64,000 nt of DNA from Brachyspira sp. SAP_772 (GTDB taxonomy: Bacteria; Spirochaetota; Brachyspiria; Brachyspirales; Brachyspiraceae), in assembly GCF_009755885.1 (NCBI RefSeq), contig NZ_VYIX01000002.1, positions 730,864 through 794,863 of the forward strand, given 5' to 3'. The translations under genes and the position numbers were made by a program. Each line of letters begins with the position of its first letter. Position 1 is the first letter of the stretch. Below are positions 47,573 to 52,607 of the stretch, in pieces. Under the pieces are notes generated by a model. That model was not told where the DNA came from. It was given only the letters and a program-made list of their open reading frames with translations, and ran no database searches.

Positions 47573-48226
47573 ATGAATGATAAAGATATACACCCTATAA
47601 TGAAAGAACTTATAAAAGTTACTAAGTCTATGCCTATGCCTGTGGTAACAGAGATAAAACTAATCACAAATAGAGATGCTTATAAAATATTAATTTCTAC
47701 TATGCTTTCTCTTAGAACAAAAGACCCTACAACAAGAGATGCTTCTATGAGGCTGTTTGAAAAGGCAGGAAGTGCAAAAGAGATGATAAAGCTTACAGAA
47801 GAAGAGATTGCTAAACTTATTTACCCTGTTGGTTTTTATAATGTGAAAGCAAAAAATATACTTGAAGTTTCTCATATGATTATTAATGATTATAATGGTG
47901 AAGTACCTGATGAGATAGATGAGCTTTTAAAACTCAAAGGGGTAGGGAGAAAGGTTGCGAATTTAGTAGTTACAGAGGCTTTTGATAAAGACGGCATATG
48001 TGTTGACACGCATGTACATAGAATATCAAATAGATTCGGTTACGTTCACACAAAGACACCTGAAGAGACAGAGTTTGCCTTGAGGAAGAAATTGCCTAAA
48101 GAATATTGGCGGGTTTATAATGACACATTAGTTGTTTATGGGCAGAACCTATGTAAGCCCATTAGCCCTTTATGCAGTGAATGTACAGTTTCACAGTATT
48201 GCGACTATTTCAAGAACAAGAAATAA
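47573..48226 (+). CDS. nth: Endonuclease III
   Basis: A 217-residue base-excision repair enzyme that removes oxidised pyrimidines and cuts the AP site. The helix-hairpin-helix [17 protein letters not shown] near 121-137 holds the catalytic Lys, [13 protein letters not shown] near 144-156 the catalytic Asp, and the C-terminal Cys-x6-Cys-x2-Cys-x5-Cys ([17 protein letters not shown]) binds a [4Fe-4S] cluster. All residues intact. It ends next to the dispersed repeat region. Confidence 0.94.
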
Positions 48227-48247
48227 AATTTTATGTTTTTATTTTTA

Positions 48248-48480
48248 TTCAACTTTTTCCCGCCTTCGCACCGCAGGCACTTCCTTCGGTCGCTGTGCGG
48301 ACTTTGTCAAAGTTTTTGCCCTCAGGGCACGCTTCGCGAAAGTGCAAATAAGAGAATAATACTAAATAATATTAATTATATATTTTAGCTAAAAAATGCA
48401 GTCTTTTTGCTTCTTTGGGTCACCAAAAGAAGTGGGGGTGTGTACCCTAAGGGCACGCTTCGCAGGGGGCTAGTCCCCAC
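48248..48480. repeat. Dispersed intergenic repeat, long copy
   Basis: TTCAACTTTTTCCCGCCTTCG, GGCACTTCCTTCGGTCGC, ACTTTGTCAAAGTTTTTGCCC, ACGCTTCGCGAAAGTGC, an AT-rich core with ATTTTAGCTAAAAAATGCAG, then GGGCACGCTTCGCAGGGGGC. This is the inverse of the 18657 copy. Confidence 0.88.
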
Positions 48481-48507
48481 AAACAAAAAAAGACAAAAAA
48501 TTTATTA

Positions 48508-48676
48508 TTCTTTTTCCCGCAGCAAAAAGAACCAAAAAGTGCGAGTAAGAGAATAATACTAAATAATATTAATTATATATTTTAGCTAAAAAATGCAGCC
48601 TTTTTGGTTCTTTGTGGCAATAAAAGAACTGGGGGGTTCTACCCTACGGGCACGCTTCGCAGGGGGGCTAGTCCCC
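48508..48676. repeat. Dispersed intergenic repeat, second adjacent copy
   Basis: TTCTTTTTCCCGCAGCAAAAAG, then the AT-rich core (48539-48612) nearly identical to 48342-48415, then CTACGGGCACGCTTCGCAGG and GGGCTAGTCCCC. Confidence 0.85.
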
Positions 48677-48709
48677 GAAAACAATAAAAAATAATTCTCC
48701 AAATATAAA

Positions 48710-50659
48710 CTAAAAATTATACCCAACTTCAAATTCAAAAGTAAATGGCTTTGCTACTGAATAGGTTGATAACATAGGGGTTCTATTCAATATGTTCTTA
48801 AAATGCATAGAAAATATTAAATGCTTAAACCATATAGAATAAAATGATATATTCAAATTATGAAACTCTTCTGAATAATATACGGGCTTATTTGATGTCA
48901 TCGCTCTTGGGCTTGAATATATATAATAAATATTAAAAGATAATGAGCTTAATATTTTACCATCTGAAACAAAATCATATCCAAGCAGTGCCGTTACAAC
49001 ATTATTAGGCAAACCTATTTTTGGAAGTTTTTCTGCGTTAAGATATGCTAGCTGATAAGAATATTCTATTTTTGCTTTTATTTTATTGTAGGTTAAAAAG
49101 TAAATATCATATCCTATGCTTGAAGAAAATACATGAGCTATAGCACTGTCTGCATTTTCTGGAATACTGCTGTACCATATTATTTTATTTGTGTAGGTGG
49201 TGTATGTGTATGCGGATTCTATTTTTAAGTTTGTTATTGGTTCTAATGATATTTTAGTGAGTATTTGATTATAGGTTTCTGGTTTTAAGTTTGGGTTGCT
49301 GAAGTTGCCGTAATACAAATCATTAAATGTTGGGCTTGTATAATCGCTCATATAGGCAAAATACAAACTATAGCCTTTATAAAAGTTTAAATTAAATCCT
49401 GCATTATATGCTAAATAATTATTATGTTTTTGATTTGTAAAAAGTTCATTTTGATATTCATATTTTATACTTGGCATAAGTGTGAATATTGGAGTATTAT
49501 TATCCCAGTATCCGAACGAAAGCTGAAAATCATATTTTATATTTAGTGAATGTCTTTGAGGGTTATATTTAAAATTAGTTTCTAAGGCATTTTTTTCTTC
49601 TGTAAGTATATCGTATCTATATTCGGGAGTTAGTTGGTTATATAATGTAATAGTGTTTGGTATAAGTTCATCCATTCTTTTTAATGTTGTATTTATAGCT
49701 AATCCATGTGATTTATAATCTGATACAAATTTTCCGTTTTGAAGATATGGTCTGTCTACAAATGAATCAAACAAGTATGAGAGATTTATATTATAATCCA
49801 GCACATCAGAAAAGCCGTTGTATGATATAGATGAAGCTAGAGTTGTAAAATTAAACCATGAATCAGTATAGATTATTGGAGGAATTTGATATTGTGATGC
49901 TGAACTTGAATATGATATATTTGCAAATGCATTTATATAGTCTTTATTTTTAAATATATATTTATAGTTAGCAGAAGAGTTTATTATAAATTGTCTGTTG
50001 TCTTCAATGTTTCCTTCAACCCATTTGCCTGCTAGGTTTGTGAAGTTATAATAATAATTAGCGTCGCTGTAATAAGAATCTGCTGTAAAGGTGAATATTT
50101 GATTATCGTCTATATTTTTTGAAAACAGTATTGAAGGGGCTATTGTATTGTATGAGCCATATGATAATGATAAAAGTATAATATCTTCTTTTGGAGTTTT
50201 TGTTGTGATGTAAATTGAAGAGCCTATTATCTCTATTTTTTCTATGAGGTTTGAAGGTATTCTTCTTAAGTCCACACCTGCATCAGCATTACCTTTAGCA
50301 GTATTCATCAAAACGCCGTTAATATATATTTTTATATTGTCAGCATTTCCAAAAGCAGGGTCAACCACTTCATTACCCATATAGCTTCCCTTGTTTACAA
50401 AGCCAGCCTGATTTTCTAATACTTCTTTAGCATTGTTGTAGCCCATTCTCTCTATTTCTTCAGAGGTGATAGTTTTGTTATTTACATTTATAGGGCTTTT
50501 GTATGATGAGTTTGAAGAGTTATTATTTGTTTGAGTATTATTGGTTGTTTCTACCTGTGAAGTAACCCATATACCTCCTTTAAGCTCTCTTATAAGGTAA
50601 GTTTGCGAATACAATAAATTTATAGAAGCAAAAAAGAAGTATATGATAAAACGTTTCAT
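48710..50659 (-). CDS. btuB: TonB-dependent outer-membrane receptor, probable cobalamin receptor
   Basis: A 649-residue protein: signal peptide (MKRFIIYFFFASINLLYSQ), Asn/Thr-rich linker, plug domain (TSEEIERMGYNNAKEVLENQ near 64-83, NIKIYINGVLMNT near 109-121, VDLRRIPSNLIEKIEII near 130-146) and a 22-strand-like barrel with FNDLYYGNFSNPNLKPETYNQ near 461-481 and a final Phe. No clear TonB box is visible. The upstream cobalamin riboswitch (51291-51412) and the lipoprotein between them suggest uptake of vitamin B12 or a related corrinoid. The symbol rests on riboswitch context, not on specific residues. Confidence 0.8.
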   Translation of the reverse strand: MKRFIIYFFFASINLLYSQTYLIRELKGGIWVTSQVETTNNTQTNNNSSNSSYKSPINVNNKTITSEEIERMGYNNAKEVLENQAGFVNKGSYMGNEVVDPAFGNADNIKIYINGVLMNTAKGNADAGVDLRRIPSNLIEKIEIIGSSIYITTKTPKEDIILLSLSYGSYNTIAPSILFSKNIDDNQIFTFTADSYYSDANYYYNFTNLAGKWVEGNIEDNRQFIINSSANYKYIFKNKDYINAFANISYSSSASQYQIPPIIYTDSWFNFTTLASSISYNGFSDVLDYNINLSYLFDSFVDRPYLQNGKFVSDYKSHGLAINTTLKRMDELIPNTITLYNQLTPEYRYDILTEEKNALETNFKYNPQRHSLNIKYDFQLSFGYWDNNTPIFTLMPSIKYEYQNELFTNQKHNNYLAYNAGFNLNFYKGYSLYFAYMSDYTSPTFNDLYYGNFSNPNLKPETYNQILTKISLEPITNLKIESAYTYTTYTNKIIWYSSIPENADSAIAHVFSSSIGYDIYFLTYNKIKAKIEYSYQLAYLNAEKLPKIGLPNNVVTALLGYDFVSDGKILSSLSFNIYYIYSSPRAMTSNKPVYYSEEFHNLNISFYSIWFKHLIFSMHFKNILNRTPMLSTYSVAKPFTFEFEVGYNF

Positions 50660-50665
50660 AATTAT

Positions 50666-51217
50666 TTATTGTTGTTGATTATAATTAAAGTCTTTTATTA
50701 TACCTGTAATATATGAACCCCAGCTAGACATTATTTTTTTCCAATCTTCTTCTGTTGGAGGCTCTGCACCTGTAGCACCTGTATCAAATCCTGAAGCAAG
50801 CATAAAGTTTCCATCTGTATCTATATGAAATAACATCCATTTACTATCATATTCTGGTCTTCTTGGGTCTTCATATAATGCACCTATCCAGTTTGTGCCT
50901 TTCCATTCTATATTTGTAGCATATATAAAATTACCTAACACTTCGCCGTTTTCTAAATATGTGCCTTTTTCATCTGTTTCTCTTGTGGCAGTTGTTACGC
51001 CTGCGGGTATTATTGCTTGATTTGTGAATGTATTTAGCCAGTTGGTGCGGAAATATTCTTGCTTATTTTTATCAGTCCAGCTTAGGCTTAAAATACTTTC
51101 ATCTGTGAGAAGTTTATATTCTCCTCTTTGTGATTGTGTGGTATTAGGTTGGTTTGGGTTAGTACAAGATAAAAAAGAAAAAATTATTAATGTTGAAACA
51201 AATATTGTTTTAAACAT
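50666..51217 (-). CDS. Lipoprotein in the cobalamin-riboswitch operon
   Basis: A 183-residue lipoprotein (FLSC lipobox, Cys18). The mature part is beta-rich with many Trp and Tyr (LSLSWTDKNKQEYFRTNWLN, TNIEWKGTNWIGALYED, KWMLFHIDTDGNFMLASGF) and ends in a helix EEDWKKIMSSWGSYITGI. I know no such family. It is the first gene after the riboswitch and ends 6 bases before the TonB receptor, so it may be a surface or periplasmic corrinoid-binding partner, by inference only. AAGGAG precedes the ATG. Confidence 0.72.
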   Translation of the reverse strand: MFKTIFVSTLIIFSFLSCTNPNQPNTTQSQRGEYKLLTDESILSLSWTDKNKQEYFRTNWLNTFTNQAIIPAGVTTATRETDEKGTYLENGEVLGNFIYATNIEWKGTNWIGALYEDPRRPEYDSKWMLFHIDTDGNFMLASGFDTGATGAEPPTEEDWKKIMSSWGSYITGIIKDFNYNQQQ

Positions 51218-51560
51218 AAAAAAACTCCTTTAAAATTAGGAGCGAATACATAAAAAGTTTATAAGTTTAAAAAAGAATAAAACTCATAATATAGTGCACT
51301 CGACTCGATTATTTTACAATAAGGCATTCCGACTTCGTTAGTTTTTTAGAACTAAGCTTTACGGTTGCGGGCCAGCGTGGGATTTTCACCCTCATTCCCC
51401 CTATTGCACAAAAGAGTATACAGCAAAAAAAATCTATGTCAAGAAATATTATTTTTTTTATCTTATTTCATATTAATATTATGCTTGACATAGAGCCGTT
51501 TTTTTATTATTATATCACAAATATTTTTTATGCTTACTAGTTTTATGGAGAGAGAGTATT
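51218..51560. other. Divergent upstream region holding a riboswitch
   Basis: The 343 bases between the B12 operon and the gene at 51561 contain the cobalamin riboswitch (51291-51412, minus strand); the remaining 148 bases towards 51560 are AT-rich and should hold promoters for both directions. No gene is seen. Confidence 0.75.
51291..51412 (-). promoter_or_regulatory. Cobalamin (B12) riboswitch
   Basis: On the minus strand, in order: GGGGGAATGAGGGTGAAAATCC (51380-51401 region), GCCCGCAACCGTAA (51359-51372) and GTCGGAATGCC (51323-51333). These are the conserved core elements of the cobalamin riboswitch, with possible closing pairs GTGCA / TGCAC at the ends. It ends about 74 bases before the lipoprotein ATG. 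High cobalamin should repress the downstream genes. The mode, transcription stop or ribosome-site masking, is not clear from the sequence. Confidence 0.9.
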
Positions 51561-52607
51561 GTGATTAGCTATTTTCAAAAAAACAAGAAAAGAAAAAGTA
51601 TATTAAATAAAATTAAAGAAAAAAGAATAATTATAAATGATTTTTATGTGCCTTTGGGAATAGTTCCTATAGAATCTTCCAAACCTAAAGAGGGCGTGAG
51701 TATAGAATTAAAAACTTCTGAGGACAGTGCTGATATGTATTCCTACAGCATTTCAATATCAGCAAATAGGCTTTCAGATTTGTTTCTAAAATTAATAAAA
51801 TTACTTCCATATTATGCTACTATGGTGATAGAGAGAAAAAGTGAGGATATAAACAGAGACTTTGATGTGCTTATGAGCGACCCTGATATATCTTTAAGCG
51901 AGATTAGAAGGGTGTTTAAAAAATATAATGAGCTTTGGGTAGAATGCGGATTTGTTGGCTTTGGGGTTGTTGATGAGTATAATGATTTTGAGATTTTTAT
52001 TAATTTGGATAAAGAAATTATTATAAATACTCCTTTTAAAAATATTAAAAAAATCAATAGAATATTAGATTCTTTTAATCTATTAGACGAAACTCCTGTT
52101 TTTATTAGTGCGGACATTCACTGGCATTATTCTTTATCTTCTATAGTATCCTATGAGAGCTATAGCGAGACTTATGAATATATATTTGATTATTATGATA
52201 TTATTAACAATTTAAAGCATAGTTTTGGCTTTGTGATGATTAATGATGATGAGAAAATATATAGAGAGCCTAAATGGTGGAATGTTACTGTCCGCTGTCT
52301 TGGAAAGTGTAAGACGGTATCTTTTGTTTCTTCATATTATATAGTGGCAAACACAATAGAAGAGATGGAAACTGTAATAGAAGAAAAGATGAAAGATATT
52401 GGTATAGAATATTATTATATATATGATTATTATAATGTTGACCCTAATAATTATCATTATAAGAGTGTAAACTTATCAAACAAAGATAATTTATTTTTTA
52501 ATAAGGCACCTTTTGGTATATGGGCGGAGTCTGACATATTTATAAGCAAGGTAAAAGATATTAGTTTATTTTATATAAATAATAGAAGTTATGAAAGAGC
52601 ATATTAA
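51561..52607 (+). CDS. Hypothetical protein
   Basis: A 348-residue cytoplasmic-looking protein I do not recognise. It has no signal peptide, is acidic and Tyr-rich, and shows alternating alpha/beta segments (VECGFVGFGVVDEYNDFEIFINLD, SFGFVMINDDEKIYREPKWWNVTVRCLG). The start is GTG 51561 with GGAGAGAGAG about eight bases before. Its end overlaps the Nudix gene by 17 bases, indicating coupling. Confidence 0.68.
   Translation: MISYFQKNKKRKSILNKIKEKRIIINDFYVPLGIVPIESSKPKEGVSIELKTSEDSADMYSYSISISANRLSDLFLKLIKLLPYYATMVIERKSEDINRDFDVLMSDPDISLSEIRRVFKKYNELWVECGFVGFGVVDEYNDFEIFINLDKEIIINTPFKNIKKINRILDSFNLLDETPVFISADIHWHYSLSSIVSYESYSETYEYIFDYYDIINNLKHSFGFVMINDDEKIYREPKWWNVTVRCLGKCKTVSFVSSYYIVANTIEEMETVIEEKMKDIGIEYYYIYDYYNVDPNNYHYKSVNLSNKDNLFFNKAPFGIWAESDIFISKVKDISLFYINNRSYERAY

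Follow-up and report, generated by a model that had tools for sequence, protein, structure and literature searches.

A cobalamin riboswitch ahead of a lipoprotein and receptor operon in Brachyspira and its predicted role in corrinoid import

In this study, we analysed a 64-kb stretch of the genome of Brachyspira sp. SAP_772 (64,000 nucleotides; hereafter the window), in which a lipoprotein gene and a TonB-dependent receptor gene follow a cobalamin riboswitch aptamer on the minus strand (Table 1). A gap of 6 nt separates the lipoprotein gene from the start of the receptor gene that follows it, and a signal peptide with a lipobox cysteine is predicted from its sequence. Promoter-like sites numbered 28 in the region against 21.1 expected, and the consensus match of the promoter in Table 1 is weak on its own.

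Table 1. Coordinates of the features discussed in the text
Feature	Position	Strand	Remarks
TonB-dependent receptor, 649 aa	48710..50659	minus	Plug domain, BtuB-related
Receptor N-terminal stretch			YLIRELKGGIWVTS
Lipoprotein gene, 183 aa	50666..51217	minus	Lipobox FLSC (Cys18); Pfam/NCBIfam-free
Shine-Dalgarno AAGGAG	51225..51230	minus	
Sequestering hairpin GCTCCTAATTTTAAAGGAGT, then T run	51224..51243	minus	Terminator-like too
Element B ATGTATTCGCTCC, candidate anti-Shine-Dalgarno strand	51239..51251	minus	Pairs with A or with Shine-Dalgarno
Element A, P13/L13 candidate CGAGTCGAGTGCACT	51293..51307	minus	Pairs with element B; 3/4 possible pairs with L5
Cobalamin riboswitch aptamer, AdoCbl-II-like	51314..51409	minus	RF01689 32.8 bits; covariation; two orthologues above gathering
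B12-box-like stretch AAGTCGGAATGCC	51323..51335	minus	3′ side of P6, J6/3, P2
L5 loop letters GCCC	51369..51372	minus	GCAC or GCAT in most relatives
Sigma-70-like promoter TTGACA-16-TATACT	51415..51442	minus	11/12 matches; consensus match only
Orphan riboswitch loci	L086-L093, L095, L096, L122-L133		G005-G010, G015, G016, G022-G025

At the Rfam gathering thresholds, no match was found in the whole 64-kb window. A permissive scan of positions 51150-51600 returned the AdoCbl-II model RF01689 at 51409-51314 on the minus strand, with a score of 32.8 bits (E 5.4e-6; gathering cut-off 36.5) and an alignment over the full length of the model (positions 1-81). The core riboswitch motifs that the preliminary description had read on the minus strand upstream of both genes are indeed present at that place. 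The RF00174 covariance search that it had proposed gave a match where one was expected, but the score of 22.2 bits lay below the cut-off of 31.5, and RF01689 is the nearer family; this was the single RF00174 match in the entire 3.04-Mb assembly (E 0.0017). The fact that two of the 17 loci submitted to the gathering scan contain an orthologous copy above the RF01689 cut-off (L006 from B. alvinipulli with 41.4 bits and L005 with 40.0 bits) shows that the window copy, although sub-threshold, is homologous to copies that pass. The riboswitch belongs to a known kind, the cobalamin class in the wide sense, and the stretch at 51323..51335 is what we take to be its 'B12 box'. Because the Rfam threshold hides the switch in the window genome, annotation misses the regulon. 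No report of a B12 riboswitch in Brachyspira came up in a search of the open-licence literature.

Unguided folding of 19 distinct Brachyspira copies by RNAalifold recovered the cobalamin helices, and for six of the 16 pairs at least one sequence differs at both positions. When the full P3 was included (18 pairs), 97.7% of the cells were paired compared with 88.4% in shuffles, seven pairs showed changes on both sides, and the covariation score was 0.294 against 0.119 in shuffles, a value equalled by none of 500 shuffles. Shifting the pairing partners along the alignment abolished the covariation signal. The aptamer core is nearly invariant among the 19 copies, so that the conserved core and the covarying helices that mark the cobalamin class are both found. 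A covariance model built from these copies (R1) scores the window copy at 105 bits, although that copy was part of the training set. Decay of the riboswitch to a functionless remnant in this species would fit its scores below the Rfam cut-offs and its single mismatches in P3 and in L5-L13, but the R1 score, the core letters kept across the 19 copies and the quite different look of real decay (e.g., the deleted core in G010) make such a loss extremely improbable.

R1 gave strong matches in 25 of the 26 Brachyspira genomes and none in the remaining one (G019). Among the five other genomes of the order, one had a weak match, and the weak match of G030 (27.8 bits) was read by eye. In a sample of the phylum, 98 of 392 genomes had a match at E <= 1e-4, of which 25 are Brachyspira genomes and the other 73, with scores of about 31-60 bits, lie outside the genus. 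Eight of the outside-genus regions were examined together with their genes and 20 more as short stretches. In L202 and L198, SBP-, permease- and ATPase-like genes (named by eye, with one SBP of L198 tested by profile) come after the R1 match and a receptor, and in L199 and L203 the match precedes a receptor. In L197, it precedes a lipoprotein with a DUF4465 domain (PF14717, E 2.5e-51), a family that includes B12-binding proteins according to the part of the literature consulted (PMC13398666).

Past the aptamer, the Brachyspira leaders contain CGAG in an element A, then a strand B in which CTCC is usual, and finally the Shine-Dalgarno sequence; in the window, this part of the leader with its Shine-Dalgarno hairpin spans 51307-51218. 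Pairing was tested in 30 distinct leaders (L106 and L115, which have no start codon by the rule of the script, were excluded). In the window, the pairing of A with B was calculated at -13.6 kcal/mol (p 0.003) and that of B with the Shine-Dalgarno sequence (B:C) at -6.5 kcal/mol (p 0.28, no better than shuffles). Pairing stronger than in shuffles (p<0.05) was found in 23 of the 30 leaders for A:B and in 21 for B:Shine-Dalgarno. In each of the 30, these pairings overlap, which is partly built in because A and the Shine-Dalgarno sequence both contain GAG, so that A imitates the latter. Element A is located where L13 is expected, and its loop is able to pair with L5. The P13 hairpin has all three pairs in 26 of 40 copies, the window copy included. 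For L5-L13, 30 of the 40 distinct copies can form four of four pairs, and the other 10, among them the window copy with its central mismatch, can form three of four. Variation at this central position is never compensated in the 40 copies, and the L5-L13 pairing was rejected as proof of the mechanism. Such L5-L13 kissing is described as established for the cobalamin riboswitch class in the portion of the literature seen (PMC9600662), and it may also occur in the Brachyspira copies.

Taken together, these features make it highly probable that the leader acts on corrinoid import as an OFF switch at the level of translation. Transcription on the minus strand would begin just upstream of the aptamer. 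When cobalamin is absent, A (51307-51293) would pair with B (51251-51239), AAGGAG would stay free, and the lipoprotein and the receptor would be made. With cobalamin in the aptamer, L5 would dock on the L13 part of A and free B, which would then pair with the Shine-Dalgarno sequence in the GCTCC/GGAGT hairpin and stop translation of the lipoprotein and of the closely linked receptor. The receptor, a diverged BtuB, would hand the corrinoid to BtuFCD, encoded elsewhere in the window genome, while the surface lipoprotein would probably capture the corrinoid or cap the receptor, like BtuG/BtuH of Bacteroides.

The same riboswitch might instead control transcription, with the GCTCC/GGAGT hairpin and the T run (51243-51218) acting as an intrinsic terminator when cobalamin is bound. 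This hairpin is the sole terminator-like site in 48200-51600, but region shuffles average 1.8 such sites, the hairpin includes the Shine-Dalgarno sequence, and the T run stops at the ATG. A terminator is possible in the window species because the T run follows the hairpin directly, and less so in most relatives: apart from the pilosicoli and alvinipulli groups, the majority of leaders have GGAGCATT in place of the T run but keep the B:C pairing. Transcriptional control is in our view unlikely.

The ligand is probably cobalamin or a related corrinoid, since five lines drawn from the genomes agree on it. The first is the aptamer architecture itself; more than one corrinoid elicits a response from the cobalamin riboswitches that have been tested in other bacteria, as stated in the part of the literature available to us (PMC9600662). 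Secondly, in G001 (L094, G001:C1:1155314-1163415), the same riboswitch class stands directly before metE, whose product scores above its cut-off. The metE gene encodes the B12-independent methionine synthase and is a classical B12-repressed gene. Thirdly, the receptor gene in G001 and G003 is followed by genes for an SBP, a FecCD permease and an ATPase (btuFCD). Fourthly, the window genome has a btuFCD-like set away from the receptor locus (L150; Pfam Peripla_BP_2, FecCD and ABC_tran) as well as MetH with a separate activation domain (L151). Finally, the riboswitch, the receptor, the FecCD permease and the MetH-type long B12-binding match are all absent from G019, a genome that is 99% complete; the last of these was found in 24 of the 26 genus genomes and is missing from G019 and G023 (85% complete).

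It could be argued that the RNA senses cobalamin while the receptor and the lipoprotein import another cargo, such as haem or an iron chelate, under indirect B12 control. TonB-dependent iron transport appears in the portion seen of a B. pilosicoli comparison (PMC3532143), an entry that we infer to refer to this receptor, and the SBP of the window genome is closest to the haem model IsdE (93 bits, with 43 bits for BtuF, both below cut-off). However, at E <= 0.001 in NCBIfam, all 11 receptor orthologues examined match nothing but TIGR01779 (TonB-dependent vitamin B12 receptor) and the BtuB models, although far below their equivalog cut-offs, and the best match of the FecCD permease is BtuC (again below the equivalog cut-off). 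In those Brachyspira loci that were read, the receptor operon is also headed by the riboswitch, and in G019 the absence of riboswitch and receptor coincides with that of MetH. Import of a different cargo is thus very unlikely. The B12-repressed corrinoid import that had been predicted from the window remains the best reading, given the covarying aptamer, the B12-receptor models, metE, btuFCD and the absences in G019.

The receptor was found in 24 of the 26 Brachyspira genomes, in each of which it is the sole plug-domain protein detected; G019 and G023 have none. The window receptor is 94% identical to that of Brachyspira pilosicoli T010. The Plug domain PF07715 is above cut-off in the window copy and in 11 of 11 orthologues, whereas the barrel domain PF00593 was detected in seven of the 11. 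All 11 orthologues carry YLI(R/K)EL..(G/N)IW(V/I)TS just past the signal peptide, a stretch that we take to resemble a TonB box. A search of the PDB with the receptor sequence profile gave no match at E 0.1, and the predicted structure had a mean pLDDT of 37.6.

The locus had been described at the outset as a lipoprotein-TonB receptor pair. The Plug-domain receptor and the lipoprotein are both conserved, but a TonB partner was not found: no protein above the cut-off of PF03544 or TIGR01352 was found in any of the 26 genus genomes, whereas TonB was present by the same models in all five genomes outside the genus. Inspection by eye of the listed ORFs beside ExbD, or after btuD in G001 and G003, revealed no TonB gene. 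ExbD was present in 25 of the 26 genus genomes, G019 included, and since this genome has no receptor, ExbD is no evidence that the receptor is energised. Either TonB has diverged beyond the reach of PF03544 and TIGR01352 or another protein does its work.

Neither Pfam nor NCBIfam gave a match for the window lipoprotein. Nine further lipoproteins, taken from related operons, likewise had no Pfam match above cut-off, and a known B12-binding domain such as DUF4465 was found neither in these nine nor in the window protein. Homologues of the window lipoprotein at E <= 0.001 are present in 14 of the 31 genomes; no relative was detectable outside the genus, and no confident fold was obtained. The predicted structure (mean pLDDT 54.8, pTM 0.47) was too uncertain to place the fold, its best match to the PDB being at Z 3.4 with none at Z 5 or more. 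Against the PDB, positions 3-61 of the lipoprotein profile weakly matched the N-terminal region of a glycoside hydrolase entry (E 0.0017), and the only other match had E 1.1; both were attributed to the signal and linker part and set aside.

Between riboswitch and receptor, 64 ORFs were found in 25 loci, with zero to six lipoprotein genes per operon, and several operons contain two riboswitches, each ahead of a lipoprotein gene. After removal of five ORFs (the fused L118_0, L097_3, which is ferritin-like by eye, and L109_0 to L109_2, near-copies of L108), the remaining 59 lipoprotein ORFs separated into one sequence group of 37 and another of 22, and the alignment between the two group profiles covers no more than 12 columns. 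The single family obtained when all lipoproteins were clustered by single linkage was not accepted, since the fused ORF had probably created it. A 309-aa ORF in G012 (L118:2197-3126) is an apparent fusion of two array lipoproteins. In L103, L106 and L018/L026 (G021, G018), the window-type lipoprotein is present in copies that are shortened or contain a stop, a sign of turnover within the arrays.

Ten genomes have an extra R1 riboswitch (57 bits or more) with no gene close downstream on the same strand. A 26-base stretch lies 100-200 nt past these orphan riboswitches and is followed in most cases by a hairpin. Of the 12 genomes with the stretch, 11 share exactly the same letters and the twelfth has two mismatches, and the stretch remains although the aptamer core is deleted in G010 and partly deleted in G006. 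The orphan units occupy two distinct gene neighbourhoods, and neither the orphan riboswitch nor the 26-base stretch is present in the window genome. Judged by this arrangement, the units are probably B12-riboswitch-led small RNAs. Rli55 of Listeria and EutX of Enterococcus are precedents for small RNAs led by a riboswitch. A canonical RF00174 riboswitch (50.1 bits) was also found in G017 (L098:1958-2138, G017:C112), where it precedes microcompartment and propanediol dehydratase-like genes (named by eye).

What is new here are the lipoprotein arrays, the missing TonB and the candidate small RNA. It is tempting to join them into one picture, in which Brachyspira has its own family of corrinoid-capture lipoproteins in shuffled, riboswitch-led arrays, a single receptor without a canonical TonB and, in relatives, a duplicated riboswitch that controls a small RNA; as a whole, this picture is tentative and rather doubtful. 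Corrinoid import through the receptor predicts that Brachyspira compete for colonic B12 through the only plug-domain receptor detected in them, and that MetH needs the B12 brought in by this receptor to make methionine. New B12-binding proteins may be found among the array lipoproteins, and with no recognisable TonB, how outer-membrane uptake is powered in these spirochaetes becomes a testable question.

In comparison with known RNAs, the window copy shares its helices and the 3′ conserved core with AdoCbl-II (RF01689, clan CL00101), but its L5 departs from the consensus, and P1 of the Brachyspira copies is short and poorly conserved outside the pilosicoli group. It has the core motifs in common with the cobalamin riboswitch RF00174, while a peripheral extension of the P8-P12 type, which RF00174 has, was not seen in the window aptamer. 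E. coli BtuB and TIGR01779 are the sole NCBIfam relatives of the Brachyspira receptor, but the window receptor reaches 39.2 bits against an equivalog cut-off of 599.7, and the barrel PF00593 is undetected in it. The closest parallel in gene content is found in Bacteroides, where B12 riboswitches, BtuB and the surface lipoproteins BtuG/BtuH share loci, according to the parts of three reports consulted (PMC10404256, PMC8941943, PMC6143338). Riboswitch, BtuB receptor and surface lipoproteins stand together there as in Brachyspira, although the Brachyspira lipoproteins differ in belonging to no Pfam family above cut-off and in forming variable arrays of zero to six genes. By analogy with BtuG/BtuH, the Brachyspira lipoproteins are likely to be corrinoid-capture or lid proteins.
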